From Gemmatimonas aurantiaca T-27 (lineage in GTDB: Bacteria > Gemmatimonadota > Gemmatimonadetes > Gemmatimonadales > Gemmatimonadaceae), in the NCBI RefSeq assembly GCF_000010305.1, contig NC_012489.1, positions 2,735,646 to 2,799,645 of the forward strand: 64,000 nt of DNA, read 5' to 3'. Below are positions 26,659-45,030 of this stretch, piece after piece; the stretch's first letter is position 1; each line of letters opens with the position of its first letter. The notes beneath the pieces are model-generated. The model did no database searches. It was not told the DNA's origin and saw only the letters and a list, made by a program, of their open reading frames with translations. The position numbers and the translations under genes are program-made.

Positions 26659-27378
26659 ATGAACCCCGCACCGCCAGCTGCCGATCGCATTCTCGTCGTC
26701 GACGACGAACCGGAAATCGTCGCCCTCGTCGCCTATCACCTGGCCAAGGCCGGATACCGGGTGGCTACCGCCGCCTCGGGCTCCGACGCGCTCGAAGTGG
26801 CGCGCCGTGAACGCCCGTCGCTGATTGTGCTCGATCTGATGCTCCCCGGCATGTCCGGGTTCGATGTGCTGGAACAGCTTCGGGCCGATGAAAGCACGCG
26901 CGAAGTGGCCGTGCTGATGCTCACGGCACGCCGCGAAGAACCCGATCGCATTCGCGGTCTGTCGCTGGGGGCTGACGACTATCTCACCAAGCCGTTCTCC
27001 CCGGCGGAACTGGTGCTGCGGGTGGGCGCCATTCTGCGGCGGACCGGATCGGCGACGCCGGTCAGCGCCGACACGCTGGTCATCGGGCCGCTCCACATCG
27101 ATCGCGCCGCCATGACGGTGCGCGTGGATGGTCAGGATGTGGAACTCACGCCCACCGAGTTCAAGCTGCTGCTCACCCTCGCTGAACGACGGGGTCGTGT
27201 GCAAGGACGTGGCCACCTGCTCGAGACGGTGTGGGAAGCCGCGCCGGATATTCAAACGCGCACGGTGGACATGCACGTGCAGCGCCTGCGCTCGAAGCTG
27301 GGCGCGGCGGGTGAGCTGATCGAAACGGTGCGCGGATTTGGCTATCGCCTGCGCGCGTCCGCACCGCGCCTGGTCTGA
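26659..27378 (+). CDS. phoB: PhoB-type response regulator
   Basis: A 239-residue OmpR/PhoB-family regulator. The receiver domain has the acidic pair Asp15/Asp16, phospho-acceptor Asp59, Thr89 and Lys111 (DDYLTKPF). The C-terminal winged helix (about 140-232) ends with TRTVDMHVQRLRSKLG and IETVRGFGYRL. Phosphorylated PhoB binds direct repeats at phosphate-starvation promoters. Sixteen bases separate it from the GTG start of the histidine kinase. The assignment as PhoB, not another OmpR regulator, rests on the adjacent PhoR-like kinase and the nearby pst operon. Confidence 0.88.
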   Translation: MNPAPPAADRILVVDDEPEIVALVAYHLAKAGYRVATAASGSDALEVARRERPSLIVLDLMLPGMSGFDVLEQLRADESTREVAVLMLTARREEPDRIRGLSLGADDYLTKPFSPAELVLRVGAILRRTGSATPVSADTLVIGPLHIDRAAMTVRVDGQDVELTPTEFKLLLTLAERRGRVQGRGHLLETVWEAAPDIQTRTVDMHVQRLRSKLGAAGELIETVRGFGYRLRASAPRLV

Positions 27379-27394
27379 CCACCAACCCGTCGAC

Positions 27395-28834
27395 GTGAAA
27401 CTCACCCAGCGGATCGTCCTGAACGCCTTCGTGGTCGCGACGGTGTTGATGGCGATCGTGCTGGTGACGGTGGAACGCCGCGTGACCGAGCGGGTGCGCG
27501 CCGAAGGGCCGATTGCGGGTGCAACATCGGCGCAGTCGTCTGATGAAATGCTGGCCGCCATTCGCCGCGATATCGTGATCGCCGGATTCGCGGCACTGCT
27601 GGTGGGGGTTGTGCTGGCGCAGGTGCTGGCGCGGCCGGTGGCGCGCCCCATCGAAGAATTGCGTGATGTCGCCCGCGGCCTCGCGGCCGGCGATCTCACA
27701 CAACGGCCCTCGCACGAGATTGCCGGTGGTGAAGTTGGCGACCTCGCCGACGCGCTGCGTCTCCTGGCCGAGCAGCTCGACGCGCGTCTGCAACTGTTGC
27801 ATGCGGAAGAGGCATTGTTGGTGGCGCTCACCGAATCGCTCAACGAGGGTGTGGCCGCGGTGGATGCCCGGCAGCGGGTCGTGCGCATCAACGAGACGGG
27901 GCGGCAGCTATTGCGGCTCAAGGAGCCGGTGCCCTTCCCGGCCGACTATCTCCCACGCGAGCGGATGCTGCGCGAGGCACTGGCGGCGGCGCTGGCTGGC
28001 ACGATCGCGGCGCCCAGTGAAATCCGCGTCGACGACCGCACCCTGTCGCTTACGGCGCGTCCACTCCCAGACGGCGGAGCGGTACTCGCTCTGTACGATC
28101 TCACGCCGGTGCGTCGTCTCGAGGCGGTGCGCCGTGACTTCGTGGCCAACGTCTCGCATGAACTGCGTACGCCGCTCACGGTGATCGGCGGTTTCGTGGA
28201 GACGCTACAGGACGAACAGCTACCGCCAGAACTTCGCACGCAGTTCCTGCAGATGGTGGACGCCAGCGTGCGGCGCATGCAGCGCATCGTCGACGATCTG
28301 CTCGATCTGTCACGGATCGAATCGGGCGGTTGGTTGCCCAACCCGATCGAACTGGACGTAGCGGTGCTCGCCGCCGAGATCATCGCACCACTCGAGCGCC
28401 CGGCGGCCGCCAAAGGCGTCGCGTTGCACGTCGAGATCGCGCCCGGCGCCGAGCGTGTATACGCCGATCCCACGGCCGCGCGCCAGATTCTCACGAACCT
28501 GGCGGAGAATGCGTTGCGACACACCCCCACCGGGAGCGTCACGCTGCTGGCGTCACCCGCAGAGGGTGGTGTATGGATTGGCGTGCGAGACACCGGCGTG
28601 GGAATTGGCGCAGAACACCTGCCGCGCATCTTCGAGCGCTTCTATCGCGCGGATCCGGCCCGCTCCCGGGAAGCCGGCGGCACCGGGCTGGGGCTCTCCA
28701 TCGTGCGGCACCTGACCGAAGCACACGGTGGACGCGTGCGGGCCGACAGCACGCTGCATGTGGGTACCACGATTCAGGCGTGGTTACCCAAGGCGGAATC
28801 AGGCACGGAGACGGAGCCGGTCGCAGGATCTTGA
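27395..28834 (+). CDS. phoR: PhoR-type sensor histidine kinase
   Basis: A 479-residue membrane kinase. The GTG at 27395 gives a normal N-terminal transmembrane helix (QRIVLNAFVVATVLMAIVLV) and avoids the 41-base overlap with phoB that a longer frame would create. A second helix lies near 68-88, then HAMP (about 88-140), a PAS-like domain (about 145-235), the dimerisation helix with phosphorylated His255 (SHELRTP), and an HATPase domain with NLAENALRHTP, DTGVGI and GGTGLGLSI. The periplasmic loop is short (about 40 residues), as in PhoR, which senses through the Pst-PhoU complex. It ends before a hairpin facing the sirtuin gene. Confidence 0.9.
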   Translation: MKLTQRIVLNAFVVATVLMAIVLVTVERRVTERVRAEGPIAGATSAQSSDEMLAAIRRDIVIAGFAALLVGVVLAQVLARPVARPIEELRDVARGLAAGDLTQRPSHEIAGGEVGDLADALRLLAEQLDARLQLLHAEEALLVALTESLNEGVAAVDARQRVVRINETGRQLLRLKEPVPFPADYLPRERMLREALAAALAGTIAAPSEIRVDDRTLSLTARPLPDGGAVLALYDLTPVRRLEAVRRDFVANVSHELRTPLTVIGGFVETLQDEQLPPELRTQFLQMVDASVRRMQRIVDDLLDLSRIESGGWLPNPIELDVAVLAAEIIAPLERPAAAKGVALHVEIAPGAERVYADPTAARQILTNLAENALRHTPTGSVTLLASPAEGGVWIGVRDTGVGIGAEHLPRIFERFYRADPARSREAGGTGLGLSIVRHLTEAHGGRVRADSTLHVGTTIQAWLPKAESGTETEPVAGS

Positions 28835-29797: not shown

Positions 29798-29930
29798 AAG
29801 GTCGCCGACTATACAACACGGGCCCCGCCTGCACCAGAAGGAAACCACCAGAAATGTGACGCATCCGTTCCGTCCGTCGGAAATGCCCGGTTGGCACCGG
29901 AACGCCCTTGCCGCGCCGGCCGGCCCCCGA

Positions 29931-29963
29931 GGCTGTGACACATTCGTTGCACAGCCGTGAGTT
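29931..29963 (+). promoter_or_regulatory. Pho-box-like repeats and dyad upstream of the TonB receptor
   Basis: Three heptamers start at 11-bp steps: GTGACAC (29935), GTTGCAC (29946) and GTGAGTT (29957). That is the periodicity of PhoB boxes, read as the complement of CTGTCAC-like units. The same bases form a dyad GGCTGTG-N12-CACAGCC (29931-29956). It lies 92 nt before the receptor start. Confidence 0.4.
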
Positions 29964-30054: not shown

Positions 30055-32856
30055 ATGCGGACCAAGGCTTACGCACTGCACCGTGTTGCGCGTCATCTGA
30101 TGCTGGCGATCACGGCGGCCGTCGTTACCACCGTCGTCCCCACGCAGCTTCGCTCGCAAGCCGCCACCGCCGCCCCCGCGGCCGATGCACAGACCGGTCG
30201 CCTCACCGGTCGCATCGTCGATGCGACCACAGGTCAGGGCATCACGGCGGCCCAGATCCAGATTGTCGGCACGGGACTCGGTATCCAGTCCGGCGTGGAC
30301 GGCCGCTACACCATCGTACGTGTGCCCGCAGGCACAGTGACCCTACAGGTGCGGCGCATCGGGTACGGCCCGAAGACGATTACCGGCCTGATCGTGCCCG
30401 CCAACGGCACCATCGAGCAGGATGTGTCGCTCTCCAGCGCCGATGTACAACTGGCCGCCGTCAGCGTCACAGCGACCAAGGAAAAGGGCACCGTCTCGGA
30501 AGCCCTCAACCAGCAGAAGAACGCCACGAATGTGGTGAACGCCATCACCGCCGAACAGATCGCCCGCAGCCCGGACAGCGATGCGGCGCAGGCCGCGCAG
30601 CGCGTGAGCGGCGTGACCGTGCAGGACGGCAAGTATCTGCAGGTGCGTGGTCTTGGTGAGCGTTACACCACCGCGTCGCTCAATGGCGCCCGCATTCCGA
30701 GCCCGGAACCCGAGCGCAAAGTGGTGCCGCTCGATCTGTTCCCGGCCGGTCTGCTGCAGGACGTAACCACCAGCAAGACGTTCACCCCCGACCAGCCCGG
30801 CGATTTTGCCGGCGCGAACGTGAACATCCGCACGCGTGAATTCCCGGCACGTCGCCAGATCAACTACACGACCTCGGTCGGTGCGAACAATCTGGTGCGT
30901 GGCCAGACGCTGCCCTTCGCCCCGCGCGCAGGCGGAGAACTGTTCGGCATGGCGTCGAGCTCACGTCGCATCCCCGATGCGATCTCGCAGGCCAACTTCA
31001 TGTCCAACATCCCGCAGTCGGTATACAACCAGATGGCGCTGGAACAGCGCAATGTCTGGAATGCCACACCGCGGAAGGGCGCGATGAATGGTTCCTTCGG
31101 TGCCTCCACCGGCGGCAACACCATCCTCGGCCGCCGCGTCGGCTACGTGCTGAGCGCCAACTACGGCTATTCGGAAGAAGTGCGCGCCAATGAACGCTTC
31201 GCCGTAGGCAATCAGGGTCCGAACAACACCGTCGTACCGCTGACCCAGGTGGAAGGCCAGACGGGCCGCTCGAGCATCCAGTGGGGCGGCATCGCGAACT
31301 TCTCCACCATCGTGGGCAAGGGCAATCGTTTCTCGCTCAACACCACCGCCACGCGCAGCGCCGACAACGAAGCCCGCATCGATCGTGGTTTCGACGAGAA
31401 CCTCGCCGACAGCATCGCCCGCACCACGCTGCGTTATGTCGAACGTTCCGTCGCCACGGCAAACCTGCAGGGCGAACATCAGCTCAGCGAACGCAACAAG
31501 ACGGCGTGGTCGGCCACGTATGCCAACACGTCGCGCAAGGAACCGGATCGCTCGGACATCGTCTACTCGCGCGACGGCACCGGCAAGTACTCGCTGCTCT
31601 CGTCGCTCGACGGCGCGCGCCGCCTGTACTTCGACCTGCAGGAAAACAACGCGACCGCTCAGTTCGATCACACGATGAACATCGGAGCGATCGCAAACCA
31701 GAACGTCGTCAAGTTCGGCGCGTACATGCGGTCCACCGACCGCACGGCGCAGGCGCCGATCTACGCCTTCCTCTCGCGGGCCGACGAAAGCATCCGTACG
31801 CAGAACCCCGATGTGATCTTCGGTGCCGGCCAGGCGTGCGCGAACTGCTCGCTCATCAATGTGCAACCCATCGGCCAGGCGGGTTCGTACACCGCCTCCG
31901 ATCGCACCACCGCGGGGTACCTGATGACCGATTGGGGCCTCGGTAGCCGAGTGCGTGTCATCGCCGGTGCACGCGTGGAGCAGGCCGACATCAACGTGCA
32001 GTCGAGCACGCAGGGTGGCTTCACCGCAGTGGCCGATCTCAAGAACACCGACGTGCTGCCGTCCCTGTTGCTCAACACCCGCCTGACCGACAACCAGAAC
32101 CTGCGCTTCGGTATCACGCGCACGCTGGCCCGCCCGGAATACCGTGAACTCGCGCCGGTGACGTTCCGCGACGTGCTGGGCGGCGTGTCGGTGACGGGCA
32201 ACGACAAGCTCGTGCGCTCGCTGATCGACAACTACGACCTGCGTTGGGAAGCCTTCCCGACACCGGGCGAAGTGTTCAGCATCGGCGTGTTTGCGAAGCG
32301 CTTCGATCGTCCGATCGAACGCGTGGAATCGGCCACGTCGGGCGCGTACCAGGCGCGTTTCCAGAACGCCCTGCAGGCCGTGAACCTCGGCGTCGAACTC
32401 GAAGCCCGGAAGTCGCTGGCGATGTTTGGTGAATGGGCCGCACCGTTCACCGCCTTCAGCAACGTGACCCTGATGCGTTCGTCGGTGGACCTCGACACGC
32501 TGCAGGGCCTCACCGTCACCGACAAGACGCGCCGCCTGGTGGGTCAGGCGCCGTATGTGGTGAACGCCGGTCTCTCGTATTCGAACCTGTCGGGCAGCAC
32601 CAATGCCACCGTGTTGTACAACGTGGTCGGTGAGCGCATCTACGCCGCCGGTGTGTTGCCACTGCCGAACATTGTCGAGATGCCACGCCATGTGGTGGAC
32701 ATGTCGTTGCGCTTCCCGGTGTGGGGCAGCCTGACCGGTCGGGTGGACGCCCGCAACATCCTCGATGCGCGCTACCGCTTCATGCAGGGCAACCTCGAGC
32801 GCGAAGGCTACAACGCCGGCCGCAACTTCTCGATGGGCTTCTCCTGGCGTCAGTAA
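30055..32856 (+). CDS. TonB-dependent outer-membrane receptor
   Basis: A 933-residue outer-membrane transporter. A signal peptide (RHLMLAITAAVVTTVVPTQL) is followed by a carboxypeptidase-regulatory-like beta-sandwich (about 45-130: GRLTGRIVDATTGQGITAAQI), a plug domain (about 135-270: QRVSGVTVQDGKYLQVRGLGERYTT) and a 22-strand-type barrel ending in an aromatic-rich C-terminus (NFSMGFSWRQ). The plug phrase 'LDLFPAGLLQDVTTSKTFTPDQPGDFAG' is typical of a receptor group related to OMP/Oar and TonB receptors paired with lipoproteins. The start at 30055 gives the signal peptide. The substrate is not readable. Position before pst suggests phosphate or phosphorylated compounds (inference). Confidence 0.9.
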   Translation: MRTKAYALHRVARHLMLAITAAVVTTVVPTQLRSQAATAAPAADAQTGRLTGRIVDATTGQGITAAQIQIVGTGLGIQSGVDGRYTIVRVPAGTVTLQVRRIGYGPKTITGLIVPANGTIEQDVSLSSADVQLAAVSVTATKEKGTVSEALNQQKNATNVVNAITAEQIARSPDSDAAQAAQRVSGVTVQDGKYLQVRGLGERYTTASLNGARIPSPEPERKVVPLDLFPAGLLQDVTTSKTFTPDQPGDFAGANVNIRTREFPARRQINYTTSVGANNLVRGQTLPFAPRAGGELFGMASSSRRIPDAISQANFMSNIPQSVYNQMALEQRNVWNATPRKGAMNGSFGASTGGNTILGRRVGYVLSANYGYSEEVRANERFAVGNQGPNNTVVPLTQVEGQTGRSSIQWGGIANFSTIVGKGNRFSLNTTATRSADNEARIDRGFDENLADSIARTTLRYVERSVATANLQGEHQLSERNKTAWSATYANTSRKEPDRSDIVYSRDGTGKYSLLSSLDGARRLYFDLQENNATAQFDHTMNIGAIANQNVVKFGAYMRSTDRTAQAPIYAFLSRADESIRTQNPDVIFGAGQACANCSLINVQPIGQAGSYTASDRTTAGYLMTDWGLGSRVRVIAGARVEQADINVQSSTQGGFTAVADLKNTDVLPSLLLNTRLTDNQNLRFGITRTLARPEYRELAPVTFRDVLGGVSVTGNDKLVRSLIDNYDLRWEAFPTPGEVFSIGVFAKRFDRPIERVESATSGAYQARFQNALQAVNLGVELEARKSLAMFGEWAAPFTAFSNVTLMRSSVDLDTLQGLTVTDKTRRLVGQAPYVVNAGLSYSNLSGSTNATVLYNVVGERIYAAGVLPLPNIVEMPRHVVDMSLRFPVWGSLTGRVDARNILDARYRFMQGNLEREGYNAGRNFSMGFSWRQ

Positions 32857-32867
32857 GTCAGGCCGTG

Positions 32868-32895
32868 CCGTGATCACGCCCTGACGTGATCACGG
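32868..32895 (+). terminator. Hairpin after the TonB receptor gene
   Basis: CCGTGATCACG, a 6-nt loop, then CGTGATCACGG: a perfect 11-bp stem 11 nt after the receptor stop, followed by GAAAAC without a T run. Confidence 0.55.
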
Positions 32896-32926
32896 AAAAC
32901 GGTGCGGCTCATCACACGATCGATCA

Positions 32927-32969
32927 CATGGCCCGGCACGGTGACACAACCGTGACCGGGCCATGACGT
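32927..32969 (+). promoter_or_regulatory. Long dyad overlapping 11-bp-spaced GTGAC repeats upstream of the repeat lipoprotein
   Basis: CATGGCCCGGCACGGT (32927-32942) pairs with ACCGTG and CCGGGCCATG (32949-32965) with one bulged base and a 6-nt loop. The right half carries GTGAC/GTGAC/ATGAC at 32941, 32952 and 32963, exactly 11 bp apart. It may be a second terminator, a PhoB-type operator, or both. Confidence 0.4.
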
Positions 32970-33048
32970 TGACGGCACAATGTCTCGCGTTCTTTCGCTT
33001 GCAGCGGATGACTCCCGTTGTCCGCGCCATTTCACTCACTCTCTCGAC

Positions 33049-35061
33049 ATGCAGATGACTTCTTTCGTGCGCCTCCGCGCCATGGCAGTGGCCTTTCTGG
33101 CCATGGGCGCCCTCGCGGCCTGCAGCGACGACGATGATCCGGTGGTGGTGCCCACGACCGGCACGCTGGCCGTCAACGTGAGCGGCCTTCCCGCCGGCAC
33201 CAACGCCGCCGTGACCATCGCGGGGCCGAACGGCTTCTCACAGACCGCGACGGCTTCGACATCGCTGCCGACCGCCGCGATTGGCAGCTACACCGTGACC
33301 GCCGCTTCGGTGACCGCCAGCAGCGTCACGTACAACGCGACGGTGGCCGGTTCGCCGGCCACGGTGACGGGCGGTGGTTCTGCCACGGTGACGGTGACGT
33401 ACACGGCCGCCGCGCCGACGACCGGCACGCTGACGGTGAACGTGACCGGCCTGCCGGCTGGTGTGAATGGCGCGGTGACGGTGACCGGCCCGAACAACTA
33501 CAACCAGACGCTCACCGCCACGAGCACGGCCACCGTCGCGTCGGGCAGCTACACCGTGACGGCCGCGCAGGTGACGAACAACAACGTGCGCTACACCGGC
33601 ACGGTCACCGGTTCACCGGCCACAGTCACGGCCGGCGCCACGACCACGGCGTCGGTGGCCTACGCCGTCGCCGCCAACCCGACGGTGACGTTGAGCGGCT
33701 CGATCGCCGCCAACCGCACGCTCACCGCCGACACGAACTACGTGCTGCGCGGTTTCGTGTACGTCAACAGCGGCGCCACGTTGACCGTGAACGCCGGCAC
33801 CAAGATCGTCGGTGACTCCACCGCACTCGGCTCGGCCCTGTTCATCCTCCGTGGCGCCCGTATCATGGCCAACGGCACGGAAGCGGCGCCGATCGTGTTC
33901 ACGTCGCAGCGCAGCGCCGGCAACCGCTCGCCCGGTGACTGGGGCGGTCTGATCATCGTCGGCAACGCCCGCAACAACCGTACGGGCAACATCATCGTCG
34001 AAGGATCCGATGGCTCGGTGGTTGGTGCGAACCCGGCCGGCGTGGTCTACACCGGTGGTTCGAACGACGCCGACAACAGCGGCACGCTGCGCTACGTGCG
34101 TGTGGAGTTCGCCGGCTATGCGACGCTGCCGGACGCCGAACTCAACTCGTTCACGTTCGCGGCCGTGGGCAGTGGCACGACATTCGAATACCTGCAGTCG
34201 GTGTCGGGCCTGGACGACTCGTTCGAGTGGTTCGGCGGCACGGTCGATGGCAAGTACCTGATCTCCTACGAGTCGGGCGACGATCACTTCGATACGTCGG
34301 AAGGCTATCGTGGCCGGAACCAGTTCCTGATCGCCTACCAGTCCACGTACATCACGCCGCGCGCTGGCGCTGGTGCCGTGTCGGCTGACCCGCAGGGCTT
34401 CGAAGTGGACGGTTGCAACGGTGGTGGCTGCACGGCGCCGGCCGGTGGTAACGCGCAGAGCTCTGGCGCGGCGGATGGCCTGTGGAACATGAACGTGATG
34501 GCCAACTACACGCTGATCGGTGTTGGTGGCACGCAGACCACGCCGGCCAACGGTGGCGTGGGTGTGGTGCTCCGCCGCGGCACGGGTGGTTACTACGTGA
34601 ACGGCGTCATCGCACGCTGGCCGCGTCAGGCGATTTCGATGCGTGACTCCACGACGAACAACCGCTTCCTCGTCGACTCGCTCATCTTCAAGAGCAACTA
34701 CCTCGCCGACAACGGCCTGCAGAACGGTGGTGTGGTGTTCGATCCGACCGGCACGAACTTCGGTCAGCAGTCGGCCTTCACGGCCCGCGGTCAGACCAAC
34801 GAAGTGGCAGCCACGTCGGTGACGGCCGCCAGCCTCTTCGCCGCCCTTCCGGCGGGTTCGGCCACGACGACGGGTGCCAATTTCGATTGGTCGCCGGCCG
34901 CCAGCTCGCCGATCGCCACGGGTGGTCTGAGCACCTTCGCGAATGACCCGCGCATCGCCGCACGCGCCGGCACGTTCATCGCCCCGACCGCCTACCGCGG
35001 CGCTGCGGCACCGGGTGGCGCGAAGTGGTGGGCCAACTGGACGAACTACGCCCGCAACTAA
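33049..35061 (+). CDS. Surface lipoprotein with tandem beta-sandwich repeats and a beta-helix-like region
   Basis: A 670-residue lipoprotein with a clear lipobox (LAAC, Cys25) followed by an acidic SDDDD tether. Two ~85-residue repeats come next (about 37-210), each with TGTL-V-NV-GLPAG, a SYTVTAA strand and GSPATVT. The rest resembles right-handed beta-helix proteins: ADTNYVLRGFVYVNSGATLTV, GDWGGLIIVGNA, NSGTLRYVRVEFAG and GLDDSFEWFGGTVDGKYL. The C-terminus ends in aromatic KWWANWTNYARN. I recognise this layout from lipoproteins encoded beside TonB receptors in several Gram-negative groups; their job is not established to my knowledge. ATG at 33049 or 33055 may be used. A role as partner of the receptor is inferred from adjacency. 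Confidence 0.8.
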   Translation: MQMTSFVRLRAMAVAFLAMGALAACSDDDDPVVVPTTGTLAVNVSGLPAGTNAAVTIAGPNGFSQTATASTSLPTAAIGSYTVTAASVTASSVTYNATVAGSPATVTGGGSATVTVTYTAAAPTTGTLTVNVTGLPAGVNGAVTVTGPNNYNQTLTATSTATVASGSYTVTAAQVTNNNVRYTGTVTGSPATVTAGATTTASVAYAVAANPTVTLSGSIAANRTLTADTNYVLRGFVYVNSGATLTVNAGTKIVGDSTALGSALFILRGARIMANGTEAAPIVFTSQRSAGNRSPGDWGGLIIVGNARNNRTGNIIVEGSDGSVVGANPAGVVYTGGSNDADNSGTLRYVRVEFAGYATLPDAELNSFTFAAVGSGTTFEYLQSVSGLDDSFEWFGGTVDGKYLISYESGDDHFDTSEGYRGRNQFLIAYQSTYITPRAGAGAVSADPQGFEVDGCNGGGCTAPAGGNAQSSGAADGLWNMNVMANYTLIGVGGTQTTPANGGVGVVLRRGTGGYYVNGVIARWPRQAISMRDSTTNNRFLVDSLIFKSNYLADNGLQNGGVVFDPTGTNFGQQSAFTARGQTNEVAATSVTAASLFAALPAGSATTTGANFDWSPAASSPIATGGLSTFANDPRIAARAGTFIAPTAYRGAAAPGGAKWWANWTNYARN

Positions 35062-35075
35062 GGCATAGGCGGACA

Positions 35076-35097
35076 GAGGCGTCACACGTGGCGCCTC
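35076..35097 (+). terminator. Hairpin after the repeat lipoprotein gene
   Basis: GAGGCGTCA-CACG-TGGCGCCTC forms a 9-bp stem with one wobble, 14 nt after the stop. Confidence 0.5.
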
Positions 35098-35146
35098 CGT
35101 CCCCTCGTCACGGCCAGCACGGTCTTGCAGTAACTTTCTGAAGTCC

Positions 35147-35182
35147 GAACGGCCGGTTCCCCACTATGGGCGCCGGCCGTTC
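35147..35182 (+). terminator. Second hairpin just upstream of the pst-cluster lipoprotein
   Basis: GAACGGCCGG and CCGGCCGTTC form a perfect 10-bp stem with a 16-nt loop, ending 17 nt before the next ATG. A TACTGT that may be a -10 box follows at once (35184-35189). The hairpin closely resembles the one at 10322-10355. Confidence 0.5.
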
Positions 35183-35199
35183 GTACTGTACCACCAACG

Positions 35200-35889
35200 A
35201 TGAAGACTCCGATGCGCTTTCTGTTCAGCACCACACGCTCCATGACCGCGGCCACCGCAACGGCGGCAACGGCGGCGATCCTCGCATTGCTCACGGCGAC
35301 GGCCTGCACTTCGGCCGAACAGTCGCCGGCCGATCAGGCGGCCAAAGACCAGGCCGCCCATGTGCAGGATGTCGTCGCGGCTGGTGGCGTGGTGGATTCC
35401 ATCCTGCCCATTGCCGAACATCTGCGGCGATTCCGTGCTGAGTTGCCAGTGGTGGACAGCCTGCAGCAGGCCAGCCCGTCGCTCGAGGCCCTGGTGGCGC
35501 GCCTTGCCCGTGCAGTGAGCACCAATGACACCACGGATCTCAATGCGATGGTGCTCAATCGACAGGAATTTGCGTATCTGTATTATCCCGATTCGCCGAT
35601 GAGCAAGCCGCCCTACGAGGCGCCTCCCGAGCTGCTGTGGGGACAGATCCTGGCGTCATCGGACAAAGGCGCTCGCCAACTCGTGAACCGATTGGGTGGC
35701 AGCACCATCACGGTCAGCAAGTTGCGCTGCCCCGCGGCCGCTGACACCGTGGGACACAACCTCGTGCACGCACGCTGTGAAGTGCAGTTTTCGGCACCGG
35801 GCAAGCCGATGCTCGAAGGCAACCTGTTCGGCAGCGTGATCGAACGTGATGGACGATTCAAGTTCATGGGCTTCGCCAACCGCATCTGA
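35200..35889 (+). CDS. Hypothetical lipoprotein heading the pst operon
   Basis: A 229-residue exported protein that I do not recognise. The N-terminus has a long Ala- and Thr-rich signal ending in ATAC (a weak lipobox, Cys36), so it is probably a lipoprotein. The mature part contains a helical stretch (VQDVVAAGGVVDSILPIAEHLRRFRAELP) and a mixed region with YLYYPDSPMSKPPYEAPPELLW. Two cysteines (KLRCPAAAD, HARCEVQF) could form a disulfide. It ends 2 nt before the pstS ATG, so it is certainly co-translated with the phosphate transporter. A role in phosphate capture or assembly of PstS is possible but not shown. Confidence 0.75.
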   Translation: MKTPMRFLFSTTRSMTAATATAATAAILALLTATACTSAEQSPADQAAKDQAAHVQDVVAAGGVVDSILPIAEHLRRFRAELPVVDSLQQASPSLEALVARLARAVSTNDTTDLNAMVLNRQEFAYLYYPDSPMSKPPYEAPPELLWGQILASSDKGARQLVNRLGGSTITVSKLRCPAAADTVGHNLVHARCEVQFSAPGKPMLEGNLFGSVIERDGRFKFMGFANRI

Positions 35890-35891
35890 CC

Positions 35892-37061
35892 ATGTCTCCT
35901 GTGGCACCATCCCGCACCGCGTGCACCCAGCGGCGATACGCTGATGTGATTCGGCCCTTTGTTGGCGCGGTGCTGTTGTGCAATGCACTGATCGGATGTG
36001 CGGGCGATCAGCCCTCCACGGCCCGGAGCGATTCCACGAATGCCGCGGGTGCTGCCAGCGTGATGACGTCCACCCGGGTCGACATCACGGGCGCCGGCGC
36101 CACCTTCCCGTATCCGTTGTACGCGCGCTGGTTCAACGAATACGCCAAGACGTCCAATACCCGCATCAACTATCAGTCCATTGGCTCAGGCGCCGGCATT
36201 CGGCAGGTGGTCGCGCGCACCGTGGATTTTGGTGCCACCGATGTGCCGATGACCGACTCCGAACTCTCGGCGTCGAAGATGCGCATCCTGCACATCCCGA
36301 CCGTGGTCGGAGCCGTGGCGATCACGTACAACCTGCCCGAGCTGTCGCGCCCCCTCAATCTGAGCGCGGATGTCATCGCCGACATCTTTCTCGGCAAGCT
36401 GACCAAGTGGAATGACACACGCCTCGCGGCGCTCAACCCCAAGGTCACACTGCCGGCTTCGGATATTCTCGTGGTCCATCGCGCCGATGGCAGCGGCACC
36501 TCGTACATCTTCAGTGACTATCTCACCGTGGTGAGTCCGGCCTGGGCCTCAGGTCCCGGTCGTGGCAAGGAAGTCCCCTGGCCCGTCGGCATCGGTGGAA
36601 AAGGGAACGAAGGCGTGGCCGGACAGGTGAAACAGATGCCCGGTGCGATTGGCTATCTCGAAGTGGTCTACGCCCGTCAGAACCGGCTGCCCGTTGCGCA
36701 CATCCGCAATCAGGCCGGACGATTTGTATCGCCGATGCCGTTTGAGATTGCCACCGCGGCGACCAGCGTGCTCGATCGCCTGGCCACTGACCGCATGGCC
36801 GCAACGGACCTCCGCATGTCGCTGGTGGACGCGCCCGGTGCACAGTCCTATCCCATCGCGTCGTTCACCTGGATGCTCATCGCTCCCGACGCCATCGGCC
36901 CGGTCAAGTCCCACCAAATGGCGTCCTTTCTGCGCTGGGCGTTGCTGGAAAATGGAGATATCGCCTCCACACTGGGCTATGTGCCCCTGCCCTCGGATGC
37001 GGCCGCCCGCGTGGTGGACAAGGTGGAAGAACTCCTCTCGCCATCGGTGGCACGCCCCTAG
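35892..37061 (+). CDS. pstS: Phosphate-binding lipoprotein PstS
   Basis: A 389-residue periplasmic phosphate-binding protein of the high-affinity Pst ABC transporter. A basic N-region, hydrophobic segment and lipobox LIGC (Cys36) make it membrane-anchored. Binding-site motifs: GAGATFPYPLYARWF, the GSGAGIRQVVARTVDFGATD loop with its Asp, and HRADGSGTSYIF. The C-terminus has the usual FLRWALLENGD and LGYVPLP. It is followed by pstC after 10 nt, with GAGGTG at the junction. Confidence 0.95.
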   Translation: MSPVAPSRTACTQRRYADVIRPFVGAVLLCNALIGCAGDQPSTARSDSTNAAGAASVMTSTRVDITGAGATFPYPLYARWFNEYAKTSNTRINYQSIGSGAGIRQVVARTVDFGATDVPMTDSELSASKMRILHIPTVVGAVAITYNLPELSRPLNLSADVIADIFLGKLTKWNDTRLAALNPKVTLPASDILVVHRADGSGTSYIFSDYLTVVSPAWASGPGRGKEVPWPVGIGGKGNEGVAGQVKQMPGAIGYLEVVYARQNRLPVAHIRNQAGRFVSPMPFEIATAATSVLDRLATDRMAATDLRMSLVDAPGAQSYPIASFTWMLIAPDAIGPVKSHQMASFLRWALLENGDIASTLGYVPLPSDAAARVVDKVEELLSPSVARP

Positions 37062-37071
37062 CTTTGAGGTG

Positions 37072-37995
37072 ATGCCCACGCGTTCCGCCGACCGGCTCTA
37101 CAAAACCGTCACCGCCAGCTGCGCGGCCGCGATTCCGGCGGTGCTGCTCCTGCTCGCCAGCGTGCTGCTGATCGGCGCCTGGCCCACGATGACGACGGCC
37201 ATCGGCTCGCTCTTCGCCGACTCCACGTGGGATGTGCCGAATCATCAGTTTGGCGCAGCGCCCCTGATCGCCGGCACACTGCTGTCATCGGCCATCGCAC
37301 TGGCTATTGCCGCACCGCTGGGCATTGGCGTGGCGCTGCTGTCCACGGAGATCGCTCCGCGACCCCTGCGCGAGCCACTCGCGTTTCTCGTGAACCTGCT
37401 GGCCGCTGTTCCATCAGTGGTGTATGGCCTCTGGGGGATCTTCATTCTGGTGCCCTTCCTGCGCGCCGGTGTGATGCCTTGGGCCATCGCTCACCTGTCA
37501 TGGCTGCCGGGGTTCAGTGGGCCGGCGTACGGCCCGAGTCTGCTGGCCGCATCGTTGATCCTCGCCATCATGGTGCTGCCGTACATCGCCAGCGTGAGTC
37601 GCGACGTGATCCGTGCCGTGCCACGCGCACAGCGCGAAGCCGCGCTGGCCCTCGGCGCCACCCGATGGGAGATGATCCGTGATGCCGTCTTTCCTGCGGC
37701 CCGCACCGGACTGTTTGGCGGCGTCATTCTCGGCCTCGGACGCGCGTTGGGCGAAACCATGGCGGTCACCATGGTCATCGGCAATCGCCACGCCATTCCG
37801 GATTCGCTGTTCGCCCCCGCCTACACCATGGCGGCCATGCTGGCCAATGAGTTCGCCGAGGCATCGGACGCCGCGCACCTCTCGGCGCTCATGGCGGTTG
37901 CCCTGCTGCTGCTGCTGATCACCCTGGTGGTCAATCTGCTGGCGCGCATGCTGGTGACGCGTGTGGGCCGCGGTCGACCGGGTGAGACCTCGTGA
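37072..37995 (+). CDS. pstC: Phosphate ABC transporter permease PstC
   Basis: A 307-residue inner-membrane permease with about six hydrophobic segments. PstC signatures are visible: APLIAGTLLSSAIALAIAAPLGIG, AVPSVVYGLWGIFILVPFLR and the ATPase-contact loop AQREAALALGATRWEMIRDAVFPAA, followed by GRALGETMAVTMVIGN. The ATG at 37072 is used, 10 nt after the pstS stop; the longer open frame lies inside pstS. Its stop overlaps the GTG of pstA. Confidence 0.95.
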   Translation: MPTRSADRLYKTVTASCAAAIPAVLLLLASVLLIGAWPTMTTAIGSLFADSTWDVPNHQFGAAPLIAGTLLSSAIALAIAAPLGIGVALLSTEIAPRPLREPLAFLVNLLAAVPSVVYGLWGIFILVPFLRAGVMPWAIAHLSWLPGFSGPAYGPSLLAASLILAIMVLPYIASVSRDVIRAVPRAQREAALALGATRWEMIRDAVFPAARTGLFGGVILGLGRALGETMAVTMVIGNRHAIPDSLFAPAYTMAAMLANEFAEASDAAHLSALMAVALLLLLITLVVNLLARMLVTRVGRGRPGETS

Positions 37996-38891
37996 AGCCC
38001 CGCATGCGTGAACAAATGCGCCTGGGCACGCAGCGCCGGCGACATGGTGTGTTCATGACCACACTGGCCTGGACCGCGGGGCTCGTGGCGCTGCTTCCGC
38101 TGGTGCTCATCCTCACGCATCTGATCGTGCACGGTTTGGGGCAGATCACCCCCACGTTCCTCACAAGTGTGCCGGCTCCACCTGGGGTGCGTGGAGGTGG
38201 TGTCGCCAATGGCATCGTCGGTTCGGCGCTGCTGGTGATCATTGCGCTTGGCATTGCCGTGCCGGTTGGCATCGGTGCAGGTCTCTATCTGGCTGAACAC
38301 GGAGCCACGCGCTTCGCACGATTGGTGCGATTGTTGGCGGATGTCCTGGGTGGGCTGCCTTCCATCGTGATGGGTATCGTGGCCTGGGAGCTCATCGTGC
38401 GTCCCGCCGGGCATTTTTCTGCCTGGGCCGGTGGTGTGGCCCTTGGCCTACTGGTGATTCCCCTGGTCACGCGGGCCACCGAAGAAATGGTACGTCTGGT
38501 GCCGTCGTCACTCGCCGAAGCCGCGTTGGCTCTGGGCTATCCACAGTGGCGCACGGCGCTCACGATTGTTCTGCGCACGGCCATGCCCGGCGTGGTCACC
38601 TCCATCTTCATCGCGCTCGCACGCGTGGCCGGTGAAACGGCGCCGCTCCTCTTCACCGCATTTGGCAATCCGTTCTGGTCGGTTGATCCTTCCAGACCCA
38701 TCGCCGCGTTGCCGCTGCAGATCTACGCCTACGCACAGAGTCCGTACGAGGAGTGGCGTGGTCACGCCTGGGCGGGTGCGCTGCTGTTGCTCGTGCTGGT
38801 CGCTGGTATCGGTCTTGGCTCACGCGCTGTACTGCGTGCCCGTGCCCGCCTGTTCGCCACGGTGCGCAGCACACGAGCCTCCGATGGCTGA
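37992..38891 (+). CDS. pstA: Phosphate ABC transporter permease PstA
   Basis: A 299-residue partner permease with six hydrophobic segments. Signatures: GGVANGIVGSALLVIIALGIAVPVGIGAGLYLAEHG, LGGLPSIVMGIVAWELIV and the coupling loop SLAEAALALGYPQWRTALTIVLRTAMPG, then ARVAGETAPLLFTAFG. It starts with GTG inside the GTGA overlap with pstC. Its 3' end overlaps the first pstB by 8 bases. Confidence 0.95.
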   Translation: MKPRMREQMRLGTQRRRHGVFMTTLAWTAGLVALLPLVLILTHLIVHGLGQITPTFLTSVPAPPGVRGGGVANGIVGSALLVIIALGIAVPVGIGAGLYLAEHGATRFARLVRLLADVLGGLPSIVMGIVAWELIVRPAGHFSAWAGGVALGLLVIPLVTRATEEMVRLVPSSLAEAALALGYPQWRTALTIVLRTAMPGVVTSIFIALARVAGETAPLLFTAFGNPFWSVDPSRPIAALPLQIYAYAQSPYEEWRGHAWAGALLLLVLVAGIGLGSRAVLRARARLFATVRSTRASDG

Positions 38892-39681
38892 ATCGTCCTC
38901 GGTGCCGCGTTCACCGGCCGTGCAGATCGAGCGCCTGAGCGCGGGATTTGGTCCGCGCAACGTGCTGTATGGCATGTCACTGACTGCAGAAGCCGGTCGT
39001 GTCACGGCGCTCATCGGCCCGTCCGGATGTGGCAAGTCCACGGCACTGCGGTGCATCAACCGGCTGCACGAGCGTGATGCGACGGCCTGGGTGCGTGGGG
39101 TGGTGTCACTCGTGGATGCCCCGCGCGTGAGCGACGTGTATGCCGCCGGCACCGATGTGAGCGCACTCCGACAACGCATCGGCATGGTGTTCCAGTACCC
39201 CACTCCGTTTGTCACGCAGTCGATTTTCGACAACGTGGCCGCTGGCGTGCGGGTGGGGCAGCCCGGGATCGCCCGCGCCAGACTCGAACAGGCCGTCGAA
39301 GAAGCGCTGGTGCGTGCGGGCCTGTGGCGTGAAGTGGCCGATCGGTTGCGCAGCAGTGCGATGGCCCTGTCGGGCGGACAGCAGCAACGTCTGTGCATTG
39401 CGCGGGCACTGGCGGTGCACCCGGACGTACTCCTGCTCGATGAACCCACGGCGTCACTCGATCCGATTGCCACACAGCGTATCGAGGAGCTGCTGTATGA
39501 TCTGCGCGGTAGTGTGACCATGTTGCTGGTCACGCACAACATGCAGCAGGCCGCACGTATCTCCGACACCACGGCGGTCCTGTTGGATGGACTCATTGTG
39601 GAGTGTGCGCCGACCCGGCAACTCTTCACGACGCCGCGAGACTCGCGCGCGGAAGCCTACGTGATGGGGCGGTTCGGATGA
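38884..39681 (+). CDS. pstB: Phosphate ABC transporter ATPase PstB, first copy
   Basis: A 265-residue ATPase that powers PstCA. Walker A GPSGCGKST, Q-loop FQYPTPF, signature LSGGQQQRLCIARAL, Walker B LLLDEPTASLD and the switch His in VTHNMQQAARISD are intact. Compared with the second copy it has an unusual insertion after Walker A (VSLVDAPRVSDVYAAGTDV) and the Q-loop segment PTPFVTQSIFDNV. The start ATG at 38884 overlaps the end of pstA by 8 bases and its end overlaps the next gene by ATGA. Two pstB genes in one operon are not the usual arrangement. Confidence 0.93.
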   Translation: MAESSSVPRSPAVQIERLSAGFGPRNVLYGMSLTAEAGRVTALIGPSGCGKSTALRCINRLHERDATAWVRGVVSLVDAPRVSDVYAAGTDVSALRQRIGMVFQYPTPFVTQSIFDNVAAGVRVGQPGIARARLEQAVEEALVRAGLWREVADRLRSSAMALSGGQQQRLCIARALAVHPDVLLLDEPTASLDPIATQRIEELLYDLRGSVTMLLVTHNMQQAARISDTTAVLLDGLIVECAPTRQLFTTPRDSRAEAYVMGRFG

Positions 39682-40514
39682 GCGCCCTGCGCCCGACACC
39701 GACCAATACCGTCGCAGGCCCATCGACCGCCGGCGGTAGTCTCTCACCGGTTCCGGCCACCGCCCAGTCGGTGACGCTGAGTCGCTTTTCTGCCTGGTTC
39801 GGTGCCACGCCGGCGTTGCACAACATCGAACTGCACGTGCCATCACAATCCGTCATGGCGATCATCGGTCCATCCGGTTCTGGCAAGAGCACCGTGCTTC
39901 GGGCCATCAACCGGCTGAACGACGGCCTCCCCGGTGTGCGCCACGCGGGCAGCATCCTGCTGGGCGACGAAGACATCTACGCCTCCACGGTGAACCCCAG
40001 CGTGCTGCGGCAACGGGTCGGCATGGTGTTCCAGCGCTCCAATCCGTTCCCCCGGTCCGTGCGCGACAATGTCGCCTATGGCCCGCAGCTCAATCGTCGT
40101 CTCAGGGGGCGCGAACTCGATGATGTTGTGGAATACGCCCTGCGCCGCGCCGCGCTGTGGGATGAAGTGAAGGACCGCCTGCGACAGGATGCCCGCACCC
40201 TGTCTGGTGGACAGCAACAACGTCTGTGCATCGCACGCGCGCTGGCCAACGATCCGGAGGTCCTCCTGCTCGACGAACCGAGCAGCGCTCTCGACCCCCA
40301 CGGCACACAGCGCATTGAAGAACTCGTGTACGATCTCCGCCAGCAGCTCACCATACTCATCGTGACGCACAACCTGCATCAGGCGGCGCGTGTCGCCGAC
40401 CGGACCGCTTTGCTCGTGGACGGCGTCCTCGTCGAAGAAGCGCCGTCATCGCGCCTCTTCACCCGCCCGGCAGATTCGCGCACCGAAGCCTTCATCACGG
40501 GGCGGTTCGGATGA
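39678..40514 (+). CDS. pstB: Phosphate ABC transporter ATPase PstB, second copy
   Basis: A 278-residue paralogue of the preceding ATPase, with an extra ~25-residue Ser/Thr/Pro-rich N-terminus. Walker A GPSGSGKST, Q-loop FQRSNPFPRSVRDNV, signature LSGGQQQRLCIARAL, Walker B LLLDEPSSALD and H-loop VTHNLHQAARVAD are complete. The two copies share the same C-terminal ending (EA-x-x-x-GRFG). They may form a heterodimer or serve different conditions. It overlaps both neighbours by ATGA. Confidence 0.93.
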   Translation: MSALRPTPTNTVAGPSTAGGSLSPVPATAQSVTLSRFSAWFGATPALHNIELHVPSQSVMAIIGPSGSGKSTVLRAINRLNDGLPGVRHAGSILLGDEDIYASTVNPSVLRQRVGMVFQRSNPFPRSVRDNVAYGPQLNRRLRGRELDDVVEYALRRAALWDEVKDRLRQDARTLSGGQQQRLCIARALANDPEVLLLDEPSSALDPHGTQRIEELVYDLRQQLTILIVTHNLHQAARVADRTALLVDGVLVEEAPSSRLFTRPADSRTEAFITGRFG

Positions 40515-41218
40515 ACCCACAGAGCCTCCCGGGCTATCGCCACTTTCACGACGATCTCTCGGCGTTGACCCAGCAACTGCTCGACATGTCCGAACAGGCC
40601 GAATCGTTGGTGGCCCTGGCCATGGAAGCCGTGCTGGAACGGGACGCCGACAAGGCCGATGCCGTGATCGATGCCGACGAGGCACTCGACCGCACCGAGG
40701 TGGAGGCCGAGGAGCGCGCGATCGGCATGCTGGCACTGCAGCAGCCCATGGCGCGCGACCTGCGGTTTCTGGTTGGCGCGATCAAGGTGTCGAGTGATCT
40801 CGAGCGCGTGGGTGATCACGCCGTCAACATCGCACAGGCCACGGTCCGCATGGCGGAGATCAAGGCCCCCCTGCCCACGCTGCCGGCGCTCACCGATATG
40901 TCGCGCAGGGCGCGCGCCATGTTGAGCAATGCCCTCGATGCCTTCATTCGCGGCGATGGCGCCCTGGGCCGCGCAGTGGGCAAGGCCGATGACGAGGTGG
41001 ATGCCCTGCACGGGGAGATCTACCGCACCCTCTCGTCCGGTATGATGAACGACCCGCGCATCATCCCGATGGCGCTGGAATTGTTGCTTGTCAGCCGAAA
41101 TCTCGAGCGCATCGCCGACCTCGCCACCAACATCGGCGAAAACGCGGTCTATCTTGCAGAAGGCAAACAGATCCGCCATCGGTACGACGAGACTCACGAG
41201 AATCCCCACCAGCCATGA
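40511..41218 (+). CDS. phoU: Phosphate uptake regulator PhoU
   Basis: A 235-residue all-helical protein made of two PhoU three-helix units. Each unit has the metal-binding E/D-x-x-x-D pattern: KVSSDLERVGDHAVNIAQ and LVSRNLERIADLATNIGE. PhoU joins Pst to PhoR and shuts down the Pho response when phosphate is plentiful. It overlaps the second pstB and ppx by ATGA at each end, so its level is tied to both. Confidence 0.95.
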   Translation: MNPQSLPGYRHFHDDLSALTQQLLDMSEQAESLVALAMEAVLERDADKADAVIDADEALDRTEVEAEERAIGMLALQQPMARDLRFLVGAIKVSSDLERVGDHAVNIAQATVRMAEIKAPLPTLPALTDMSRRARAMLSNALDAFIRGDGALGRAVGKADDEVDALHGEIYRTLSSGMMNDPRIIPMALELLLVSRNLERIADLATNIGENAVYLAEGKQIRHRYDETHENPHQP

Positions 41219-42807
41219 CGGGCGCGCCACTTCCCATCGGTGATGTACGCATCGCCGCCATCGACATCGGCTCGAATTCCGTGCGGCAGATCATCGCGGA
41301 TGTGTCGCCGCTCGGGCAGATCCGCGTGATCGATGAAATGAAGGCCATGCCTCGCCTGGGAGAGGGACTGGAGGCCACGGCGCAGCTTTCGGAAGAGGCC
41401 ATGGAAGCCGCCGTCTCCGCCGTTCAGCGTATGGTCACCCTGGCCGGCCAGCTCGGCGCCGCCCGCATCGAGATTGTGGCCACCAGCGCCGTACGTGACG
41501 CCGCCAACGCCGCCGACTTCACGGCTCGTGTCGCGGCGGCGGCAGGCCATCAGGTGCGCGTCCTCAGCGGCGAAGAAGAGGCCCTGCTCTGTTTCCGGAG
41601 TGCGCTCGCCCACTTCGAACTCGGCGCCGGTCGCACCGTCATCATGGATATTGGTGGCGGCTCGCTCGAAGTCGTGCTCTCCAAGGATGGCCTCATCGAA
41701 CGCGTCGCGTCGTTGCCGTTCGGTGCCGTCCGACTGACTGAAAAGTTCCTCACACCGGCCGTACGCCCGCGTCGTGTTCGCGCGTTGCGCGCGCATGTAC
41801 GGGAAGGCCTCAAGAAGGCACTGCCCGTGAAGGACTGGCGTGGCGCACAGATCATCGGATCGGGCGGCACGTTCACCAACCTCGCGGGCATGGTCCTCGC
41901 CCGTCAGCGGGTGGCGGTGCGCTCCGCACACGGCACCCGTGTGACCCGTGTGGAACTCGAACATGTGCTGGACTGGCTGCAACGCCTCGACAGCGAGGAG
42001 CGGCAGCGTGTGGCCGGTCTCAATCCCGCACGTTCCGATATCATCGTGGCAGGTCTGGCCGTGGCGGCCGAAGTCCTCGCACGATTCGATCCGCGCGACC
42101 TGCTCACCTCAGGCTACGGCATTCGTGAAGGGTTGCTGCTCGAGGCGGCACGCATCACCCCCGTCGTGGCCGATCCCGGCATGGCACGCGACCGGTCCGT
42201 GCGCGAGTTCGCCGAGCGCTGTCACTACGAGGAGCCCCACGCGCGACAGGTGCAGATGCTGTCGTTGCAACTCTTTGACGCGTTGGCCGAACGGCTCGAT
42301 CTCACGACCGATGATCGTCGCATCCTGGCCGACGCCGCCCTGCTGCACGATGTGGGATACCACATCAACTATGAAAAGCACCACAAACACTCCTTCCACC
42401 TCATCTCACACGCCGACCTGCTCGGCATGACACCGGCCGAGCAGATCACCATCGCGCATGTGGCACGCTATCACCGCGGTGCTCCCCCCAAGCTCAAGCA
42501 CTCGGGATTCGGACAACTGGAACGCGCACTGCGGGAACGCATTGTGAAACTGTCCGCGATCCTGCGATTTGCCGACGGTATGGATCGTGGGCACATCGGG
42601 GCCGTGGGGTCCATGACCGTGAAGTGGACATCGGACGCGCTGCGCGTCACGGCCCACGAAGCGGCGGGTGCCACCAACGTGCGCCTCGAATGCTGGGGGG
42701 CCAGTCGCAAGCGTCAGTTGCTGGAAGATGTGTTGGGACGCCGCGTGGCCGTGCTCACCTCGGACGGCATCGAAGTTGACGCCAGCGACGACGGCGAGGG
42801 GGAATAG
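41215..42807 (+). CDS. ppx: Exopolyphosphatase / guanosine pentaphosphatase with HD domain
   Basis: A 530-residue Ppx/GppA enzyme. The N-terminal ASKHA-fold part (1 to about 310) has AIDIGSNSVRQ and MDIGGGSLEVVLS, the two phosphate-binding loops, plus GSGGTFTNLA. The C-terminal part (about 320-530) is an HD-domain with LLHDVGYHINYEKHHKHS, as in long Ppx proteins. It cuts phosphate from the end of polyphosphate or converts pppGpp to ppGpp. Being last in the pst-phoU operon links polyphosphate release to phosphate import. It ends at a strong terminator facing ppk. Confidence 0.93.
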   Translation: MTGAPLPIGDVRIAAIDIGSNSVRQIIADVSPLGQIRVIDEMKAMPRLGEGLEATAQLSEEAMEAAVSAVQRMVTLAGQLGAARIEIVATSAVRDAANAADFTARVAAAAGHQVRVLSGEEEALLCFRSALAHFELGAGRTVIMDIGGGSLEVVLSKDGLIERVASLPFGAVRLTEKFLTPAVRPRRVRALRAHVREGLKKALPVKDWRGAQIIGSGGTFTNLAGMVLARQRVAVRSAHGTRVTRVELEHVLDWLQRLDSEERQRVAGLNPARSDIIVAGLAVAAEVLARFDPRDLLTSGYGIREGLLLEAARITPVVADPGMARDRSVREFAERCHYEEPHARQVQMLSLQLFDALAERLDLTTDDRRILADAALLHDVGYHINYEKHHKHSFHLISHADLLGMTPAEQITIAHVARYHRGAPPKLKHSGFGQLERALRERIVKLSAILRFADGMDRGHIGAVGSMTVKWTSDALRVTAHEAAGATNVRLECWGASRKRQLLEDVLGRRVAVLTSDGIEVDASDDGEGE

Positions 42808-44986: not shown

Positions 44987-44992
44987 CCATGC

Positions 44993-45017
44993 ACGCCGGG
45001 GCGCAGGGCCCCGGCGT
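44993..45017 (-). terminator. Hairpin between pit and ppk, next to the ppk start
   Basis: ACGCCGGGG, a 7-nt loop and CCCCGGCGT: a perfect 9-bp stem 13 nt after the pit stop and 6 nt upstream of the ppk ATG. It could end pit transcription, or hide the ppk ribosome entry site in a read-through mRNA. Confidence 0.5.
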
Positions 45018-45030
45018 CTCCTTAGCGGGA

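Follow-up and report, generated by a model that had tools for sequence, protein, structure and literature searches.

A TonB-dependent receptor and two lipoproteins beside pstS in Gemmatimonas aurantiaca: a candidate outer-membrane phosphorus acquisition system

Can a TonB-dependent receptor carry phosphorus across the outer membrane? Entry at this barrier is usually ascribed to passive porins, and the question is raised by a locus of Gemmatimonas aurantiaca T-27 in which three genes for exported proteins stand directly before pstS. The stretch analysed, called the window, comprises 64,000 nucleotides (G000:C1:2735646-2799645, contig NC_012489.1) of a one-contig genome of 4,636,964 bases. The three genes encode a TonB-dependent receptor (REC), a 670-residue lipoprotein (LP) and a smaller lipoprotein (SLP), the last only 2 nt from pstS, as a sequence-only reading of the window had correctly described when it proposed an outer-membrane phosphate acquisition system. 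The explanation favoured here, at a probability of roughly 0.6, is that Gemmatimonadota have in this trio their own version of a widespread outer-membrane phosphate-starvation module, of the kind represented by ElpS/CC0171 in Caulobacter crescentus and FII/Fjoh_0545 in Flavobacterium johnsoniae. A role in phosphorus acquisition of some sort is very probable.

The evidence begins with the company that LP keeps. In a set of 249 Gemmatimonadota genomes, the LP body matched 98 at E 1e-10, REC 101 at E 1e-60 and SLP 81 at E 1e-4, and the PstS model TIGR00975 matched 194 (128 over cut-off). Strong LP copies, defined by a score of 230 bits or more, number 72 in 68 genomes; 68 of these copies have the receptor no more than 3 kb away, and 66 have SLP at that range. 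Checked against PstS, with counts that are lower bounds, the lipoprotein family does co-occur with it: pstS lies within 8 kb of at least 43 of the 72 copies (downstream on the same strand in at least 35 of these) and within 15 kb of at least 44. It stays with the cassette in L102-L106, where the stretch holds no pstCAB match. Among the other 28 strong copies, 14 have phoB/R, pstCAB, phoU, ppx/ppk or nucleotidase genes in their stretch (L072 by the nucleotidase alone), and at least 58 of 72 are accompanied by phosphate genes overall. None of 20 arbitrary 20-kb control stretches from ten genomes holds phoB, phoR or pst genes, and this difference rules out a chance linkage of the cassette to phosphate genes. 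For weak copies, pstS is within 15 kb of 1 of 39 among the matches listed, and phoB, phoR or pst genes are present in 10 of the 12 loci examined out of those 39. At the level of predicted genes, the TonB receptor, the beta-helix lipoprotein and the second lipoprotein are kept together, mostly beside phoBR, pst or ppx-ppk genes. A pair found mostly away from phosphate genes, the pattern that the sequence-only reading regarded as fatal to its proposal, is not what Gemmatimonadota display.

The second line of evidence is that such pairs exist elsewhere, and it disposes of the claim that a TonB-driven route would be new: receptor-lipoprotein pairs of this kind have been published for Caulobacter (PMC2996285) and Flavobacterium (PMC8115612), each article being cited here from the part of its text that was available. 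ElpS (CC0170) of Caulobacter is a surface-located phosphate-starvation lipoprotein encoded beside the TonB receptor CC0171 (PMC2996285). The likeness to the window, a lipoprotein adjoining a TonB receptor, rests for ElpS on description and gene order; two alphaproteobacterial plasmid loci found with the window LP (L181 and L183) have the order reported around ElpS, with LP, a TonB-dependent transporter (TBDT) and type II secretion genes (N, gspD, gspE). In Caulobacter the lipoprotein gene precedes that of the receptor, unlike in the window, and stands close to the type II secretion genes on which release of ElpS depends; the receptor gene there is not starvation-specific, and the available text mentions no SLP or pstS beside ElpS (PMC2996285).

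The Flavobacterium pair is closer. Locus PUSIV of F. johnsoniae encodes the TBDT Fjoh_0545 and the lipoprotein FII (Fjoh_0546) within a phoBR locus; on depletion of inorganic phosphate (Pi) the two score 8.02 and 9.91 in a fold-change column taken to be log2, and they respond to Pi depletion only, not to nitrogen or iron limitation, and OprP of the same locus is not induced (PMC8115612). The same source relates FI-FIII to ElpS at 31-36 percent and ranks FI first in abundance among the exoproteins of Pi-depleted cells, at 18.7 percent. As in the window, a receptor is followed by a beta-helix-type (IPR011050) lipoprotein beside phoBR. Three Flavobacterium loci (L151, L158, L176) carry homologues of REC and LP in the same order, with matching receptor domains in L176, and the F. 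fontis locus shares the F. johnsoniae gene order, PF04101 glycosyltransferase included. Against its counterparts in Flavobacterium loci linked to phoBR, the window LP body scores 194-199 bits and the A1 profile 327-342 bits. Through these homologues LP appears to belong to the ElpS/FII family, a same-family beta-helix lipoprotein with an adjacent TonB receptor, and the window system is placed with that kind because the Flavobacterium loci matched by its LP share that gene order. It would be a variant form, with three proteins instead of two and joined to pstS; the Fjoh_0545/0546 operon as tabulated has no SLP and no pst genes, and its receptor barrel is PF14905, not PF00593.

Two better-known arrangements fit less well. 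SusCD and PusCD systems also pair a TonB receptor with a surface lipoprotein, but LP is a predicted beta-helix and neither LP nor SLP matches PF07980 or PF14322. OprP and OprO likewise admit phosphate at the outer membrane, but they are passive porins, and their barrel family PF07396 gave no match in REC in a Pfam search. For Gemmatimonadota themselves, PstSCAB is named as the principal path for phosphate, and some members use phnCDE for phosphonate (PMC10581226, from the part available), and no paper on such a system in the phylum was found in a literature that excluded preprints and most subscription papers. What appears new is the Gemmatimonadota system, its third protein SLP, the linkage to pstS in other phyla (single cases), the putative operator, and the strength and breadth of the PstS/PhoB link.

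Beyond Gemmatimonadota the family is broad and its linkage thinner. A scan of genome contigs returned at least 80 loci, in Gemmatimonadota, Bacteroidota and Ignavibacteriota, with a REC match in 75 of the best 80. Records titled Candidatus Kuenenia (L108) and Candidatus Planktophila (L156) carry Gemmatimonadota- and Bacteroidota-like copies, and these bins are probably mislabelled or contaminated. Two single cases join the pair to pst genes, with PstS over the TIGR00975 cut-off in each: REC-LP-ORF-pstSCABB-phoU in a Melioribacter (L119; ORF, open reading frame) and REC-LP-pstSCAB-phoU-phoR-phoB in a Sphingobacteriales genome (L126). Linkage to PhoB was assessed in 49 loci from outside Gemmatimonadota, chosen by rank (L113-L162, L134 excepted); 48 of them were counted, with coordinates matched within 60 bases. 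The genome's single best match to the PhoB model NF053854 fell inside the LP stretch in 12 of 48, where random placement, estimated from locus and genome lengths, predicts about 0.2 to 0.3; each tested genome had 5 to 49 such matches. On plasmids, 21 records matched and eight regions were read, with LP beside a TonB receptor in seven. Plasmid pBGP9 of Alteromonas macleodii carries phoB-phoR-PstS-2-oxoglutarate oxygenase-LP-TBDT-DUF3450-ExbB-ExbB-ExbD; its PhoB (TIGR02154) and PstS (TIGR02136) both exceed their model cut-offs. In two Pseudoalteromonas regions the pair adjoins ExbB-ExbB-ExbD-TonB and no phosphate gene is named, and the incomplete annotation of the Parabacteroides, Marinobacter and Hymenobacter regions shows no phosphate-regulon genes. 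In three Alteromonadales plasmids (L182, L185, L211) the pair is accompanied by DUF3450-ExbB-ExbB-ExbD, twice followed by TonB; this is likely a dedicated energising module. In a tree of 125 LP bodies, with a phosphate label assigned by hand to 55 rows, the label occurs in most deep branches, the Pedobacter and Runella/Spirosoma groups excepted, and changes 22 times against 40.9 in shuffles; a single origin is not claimed.

How would LP be controlled? Between REC and LP lies a PHO-box-like repeat at which PhoB would act. A search of the window by itself with Escherichia coli half-sites singles out just the LP region (P 0.023 among seven regions), which is unconvincing; the box becomes convincing through a multi-locus test. 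An 11-bp tandem TGAC repeat scoring at least 10 of 12 against PHO-box half-sites (those of E. coli, with the repeat read on the opposite strand) occurs in 20 of 65 deduplicated REC-LP intergenic regions, against a mean of 0.58 and a maximum of 3 in 60 resampled sets, and on the other strand in 1 of 65. Upstream of REC, each strand has it in 2 of 47 regions, where the null gives 0.3. At the same score and for the two strands, coding controls gave 0/47 and 1/47 and regions upstream of SLP 0/52 and 1/52; before deduplication, regions upstream of phoB gave 1/31 (null 1.0). An exact match to the three-repeat operator is present before LP in the window's own genome. Genome-wide this pattern has five sites against four for a reversed control, so no regulon was drawn, and within the window two-repeat sites are overall no commoner than chance predicts (17 against 17.5 expected). 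A CACA-like sequence follows the repeats at about the same distance in several relatives, judged by eye. Scans for sigma-70 and terminator consensus stayed at background level. In seven relatives (L033, L035, L037, L039, L040, L104, L107) the operator-like repeat has directly after it, as judged by eye, a long inverted repeat whose tail is T-rich, as if a receptor terminator overlapped the LP promoter. In the window the gaps are 192 nt (REC-LP), 138 nt (LP-SLP) and 2 nt (SLP-pstS); because of this spacing and two hairpins, REC, LP and SLP are not obviously one operon, which suggests at least partly separate transcripts.

REC has the plug and then the TonB-type beta-barrel of a TonB-dependent receptor (PF07715 and PF00593, both over cut-off), preceded by a carboxypeptidase-D-regulatory-like domain (PF13715, over cut-off), the only part matched in a profile search of PDB sequences. 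Neither LP nor SLP matches a Pfam or NCBIfam family over cut-off. LP is, as the sequence-only reading held, a lipoprotein by its lipobox. Its two tandem 88-residue repeats, which that reading took for beta-sandwiches, begin at residues 35 and 123 and agree at 56 of 89 aligned positions; an alternative upstream ATG at 32980 would lengthen it to 693 amino acids (aa). The N-terminal repeat appears to be a movable part because three large ORFs at other places of the genome (1774, 1321 and 841 aa; G000:C1:686744-690118 and 893269-898422) carry copies of it. The body alone has one match in its own genome at E 1e-10, and relatives of LP carry other N-terminal extensions, some matched by Fn3 chains, or almost none.

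The beta-helix also foreseen from sequence is borne out by a model of residues 215-670 as a right-handed helix (predicted local distance difference test, pLDDT, 86.9; predicted template-modelling score, pTM, 0.91). Among solved structures its fold comes nearest to NosD, phage tailspikes, alginate epimerases and related enzymes (first nine: Z 20.8 to 22.1, identity 8 to 13 percent), and such a fold alone assigns no function. Foldseek gave no E-value below 0.001 for the LP body or the SLP model, and the best 60 of 142 matches between the LP profile and PDB sequences all lay in the alignment's Fn3-like N-terminal section; not one of these touched the beta-helix body. Seven acidic residues (D342, D389, D390, E393, D411, D412 and D415) are invariant in 21 aligned bodies, and some stand about one helical turn apart as an acidic ladder, where metal ions could be held or catalysis could take place. 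By analogy a binding role is preferred for LP, because FI is so abundant under Pi depletion and purified ElpS shows no phosphatase activity (PMC8115612; PMC2996285).

Where would LP face? Its mature end reads C-SDDDD, which matches the consensus proposed for surface export in Bacteroides fragilis (PMC5080379, from the part available), a Bacteroides signal that may not be the host's. Two or more D/E at +2..+7 occur in 20 of 33 LP with a recognised lipobox (of 41 ORFs), in 3 of 22 SLP (of 32 ORFs), in 4 of 18 background lipobox ORFs (of 359) and in 46 of 63 LP from L101-L185 (88 ORFs). SLP was found only in Gemmatimonadota-type loci in an ORF search of L101-L185. Its model (pLDDT 86.2, pTM 0.70) is weakly NTF2/cystatin-like in the C-terminal half (best Z 9.6 to 4qan_A, root-mean-square deviation 4.0 over 137 aligned; next Z 7.1).

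Put together, PhoB, acting at the 11-bp-repeat operator, would raise LP when phosphate is scarce, and the acidic export signal would have LP flipped to the cell surface. There LP would capture a ligand that contains phosphorus, perhaps by way of a metal (Ca2+) on the acidic ladder, and dock on REC, which would import the ligand with TonB energy; a periplasm-facing SLP might help to receive it, and phosphate would enter the cell by PstSCAB or, in certain relatives, perhaps by Pit. TonB-driven uptake with LP as the capture protein is the probable core of this scheme. The candidate substrates are Pi, metal-phosphate, polyphosphate and organophosphate. Inorganic phosphate as the substrate is possible though not probable, and only tentatively can one picture a dedicated TonB-driven route for it (free Pi, metal-phosphate or polyphosphate), in which LP with a Ca2+-loaded ladder, a REC pump and an SLP that hands over to a lipoprotein PstS tethered in the outer membrane would actively concentrate phosphate across both membranes. 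The PstS of L105 and L106, unlike that of the window, has an apparent membrane anchor without a lipobox cysteine.

Could the imported ligand be organic? LP would then bind, and REC import, phosphoesters such as nucleotides or nucleic-acid or cell-wall fragments, which periplasmic enzymes, for example a UshA-like nucleotidase, would split before phosphate uptake. This is narrower than the favoured explanation and overlaps it, and it is possible though not probable. It is how the Flavobacterium pairs are read by their authors, as far as the available text goes (PMC8115612), and it suits the nucleotidase-like ORF upstream of phoB, found at the same place in many relatives, and a beta-helix whose matches are mostly enzymes of polyanionic polysaccharides. 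The three-gene cassette, however, contains no phosphatase, and the gene that keeps closest to it in the window clade, pstS, is specific for Pi and is retained even in L102-L106.

Several findings weigh against the phosphate-starvation module itself. In Gemmatimonadota no phosphate gene was detected with 14 of the 72 strong copies, of which five were read over a full 20 kb and nine over shorter stretches; Pfam applied to ten ORFs beside five such cassettes, some of them possibly false frames, found nothing phosphate-related. Four genomes with a strong cassette (G079, G169, G170, G188) lack a TIGR00975 PstS match and two more with a cassette (G167, G242) are not among the PstS matches listed, so PstS is not an obligate partner. 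At L085 LP lies beside phoBR without a REC or SLP match. Elsewhere the association with phosphate genes that the sequence-only reading expected, and that holds in Gemmatimonadota, does not extend to most loci: the top PhoB match lies outside the LP stretch in 36 of 48, only 3 of the 12 matches inside it exceed the model cut-off, and the stretch holds the over-cut-off PhoB in three of the eight genomes that have one. Phosphate-regulon genes appear in one of the eight plasmid regions read, under incomplete annotation. The operator repeat is absent at the same score from deduplicated regions upstream of pstS (0/26) and phoB (0/29), and its orientation is opposite to that of the E. coli PHO box.

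Of the loci in genomes without a PstS match, L063 (G188), L084 (G170) and L085 (one of two G079 copies) sit between phoBR and ppx/ppk, and L061 (G169) adjoins phoBR. Unlinked LP members may also be phosphate-controlled in trans, as is the orphan FIII of F. johnsoniae (PMC8115612). Among the cassette loci of the PstS-less genomes (L061, L063, L079, L084, L085), other transporters occur nearby: a Pit (PHO4) gene about 4 kb from LP in L085, a Porin_O_P (PF07396) gene about 2.4 kb from LP in L084, where ppk and ppx of the cluster flank it, and an SBF symporter in L063.

The Caulobacter experiments count against the module as well. The receptor gene cc0171 is expressed in rich and poor medium alike, which lowers confidence in it; the authors suggest that CC0171 may act in phosphate uptake, and the available text demonstrates none; and deletion of elpS left phosphatase activity unchanged, whereas overproduction raised it in supernatants (PMC2996285). 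These results lend something to another proposal, in which LP, either released or at the surface, assists extracellular phosphatases, or acts on glycans as an enzyme that exposes phosphorus, and in which REC imports something else or senses. The overproduction effect and the constitutive receptor suit it, and the beta-helix and its acidic residues recall hydrolases and lyases. It is nevertheless improbable: purified ElpS has no phosphatase activity, loss of elpS changes nothing (PMC2996285), and a helper leaves unexplained both the pairing of LP with a receptor (68 of 72) and the ExbBD genes beside the pair in three Alteromonadales plasmids. That REC is an ordinary receptor for sugar, metal or siderophore, set beside pst by chance or clade history, is very unlikely and already disfavoured, for although REC alone looks generic and some homologues lie beside no detected phosphate gene, the counts against controls, the recurrence in separate phyla and the Pi-specific induction of the Flavobacterium homologues (PMC8115612) all speak against it.

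If the favoured explanation is true, active outer-membrane uptake of phosphorus would be common, with a bearing on phosphorus cycling and on polyphosphate-accumulating organisms. It also offers a testable frame for a family of low-phosphate lipoproteins that are abundant and uncharacterised.

Table 1. Features of the phosphate locus, in positions of the window
Feature	Position	Strand	Basis or remark
Nucleotidase-like ORF, 1079 aa	22455-25694	-	two metallophosphatase/5'-nucleotidase halves, by eye
phoB-type response regulator	26659..27378	+	best NCBIfam TIGR02154 PhoB, 238.6 bits, below cut-off 296.2
phoR/PnpS-type sensor kinase	27338..28834	+	PnpS 290 bits, phoR_proteo 257 bits, both below cut-off
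SIR2-family deacylase	28958-29941	-	between phoR and REC
REC, TonB-dependent receptor, 933 aa	30055..32856	+	PF13715, PF07715, PF00593 over cut-off
Inverted repeat 3' of REC, 11-bp stem, no U-tract	32868..32895	+	sequence; fold of 32850-32935, z -2.7
PHO-box-like putative operator before LP	32941..32967	+	three 11-bp repeats of (G/A)TGAC, then CACAAT at 32976-32981
LP, 670-aa lipoprotein	33049..35061	+	lipobox LAAC, mature end C-SDDDD, two 88-aa repeats, predicted beta-helix body
Conserved LP beta-helix body, residues 215-670	33691..35061	+	alignment of 21 sequences; structure model
Stem-loop between LP and SLP, no U-tract	35071..35102	+	-29 kcal/mol for 35055-35110, z -5.5
SLP, 229-aa lipoprotein	35200..35889	+	within 3 kb of LP in 66/72 strong copies; structure model
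pstS	35892..37061	+	TIGR00975 359.8 bits, cut-off 205; lipobox-like ALIGC
pstC, pstA, two pstB, phoU	37077..41218	+	phoU TIGR02135 over cut-off; others by position, ORFs, conserved order
ppx exopolyphosphatase	41215..42807	+	PF02541 over cut-off; TIGR03706 260.6 bits, below cut-off 307
ppk-like ORF, convergent with ppx	42866..45139	-	sequence and position

The genes around the trio run in the order nucleotidase-like ORF (minus strand), uridine-kinase-like ORF, phoB, phoR, SIR2 (minus), REC, LP, SLP, pstS, pstC, pstA, pstB, pstB, phoU, ppx and ppk-like ORF (minus), where pstC, pstA, pstB, ppk and the nucleotidase- and uridine-kinase-like ORFs take their names from sequence, position and conserved order. 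The SIR2 gene keeps its position in the near relatives L101, L103, L109 and L111 and adjoins the cluster in L108. The two pstB genes form a tandem pair at 38866-40514, and the same doubling is seen in L101, L108, L119, L071 and L074.

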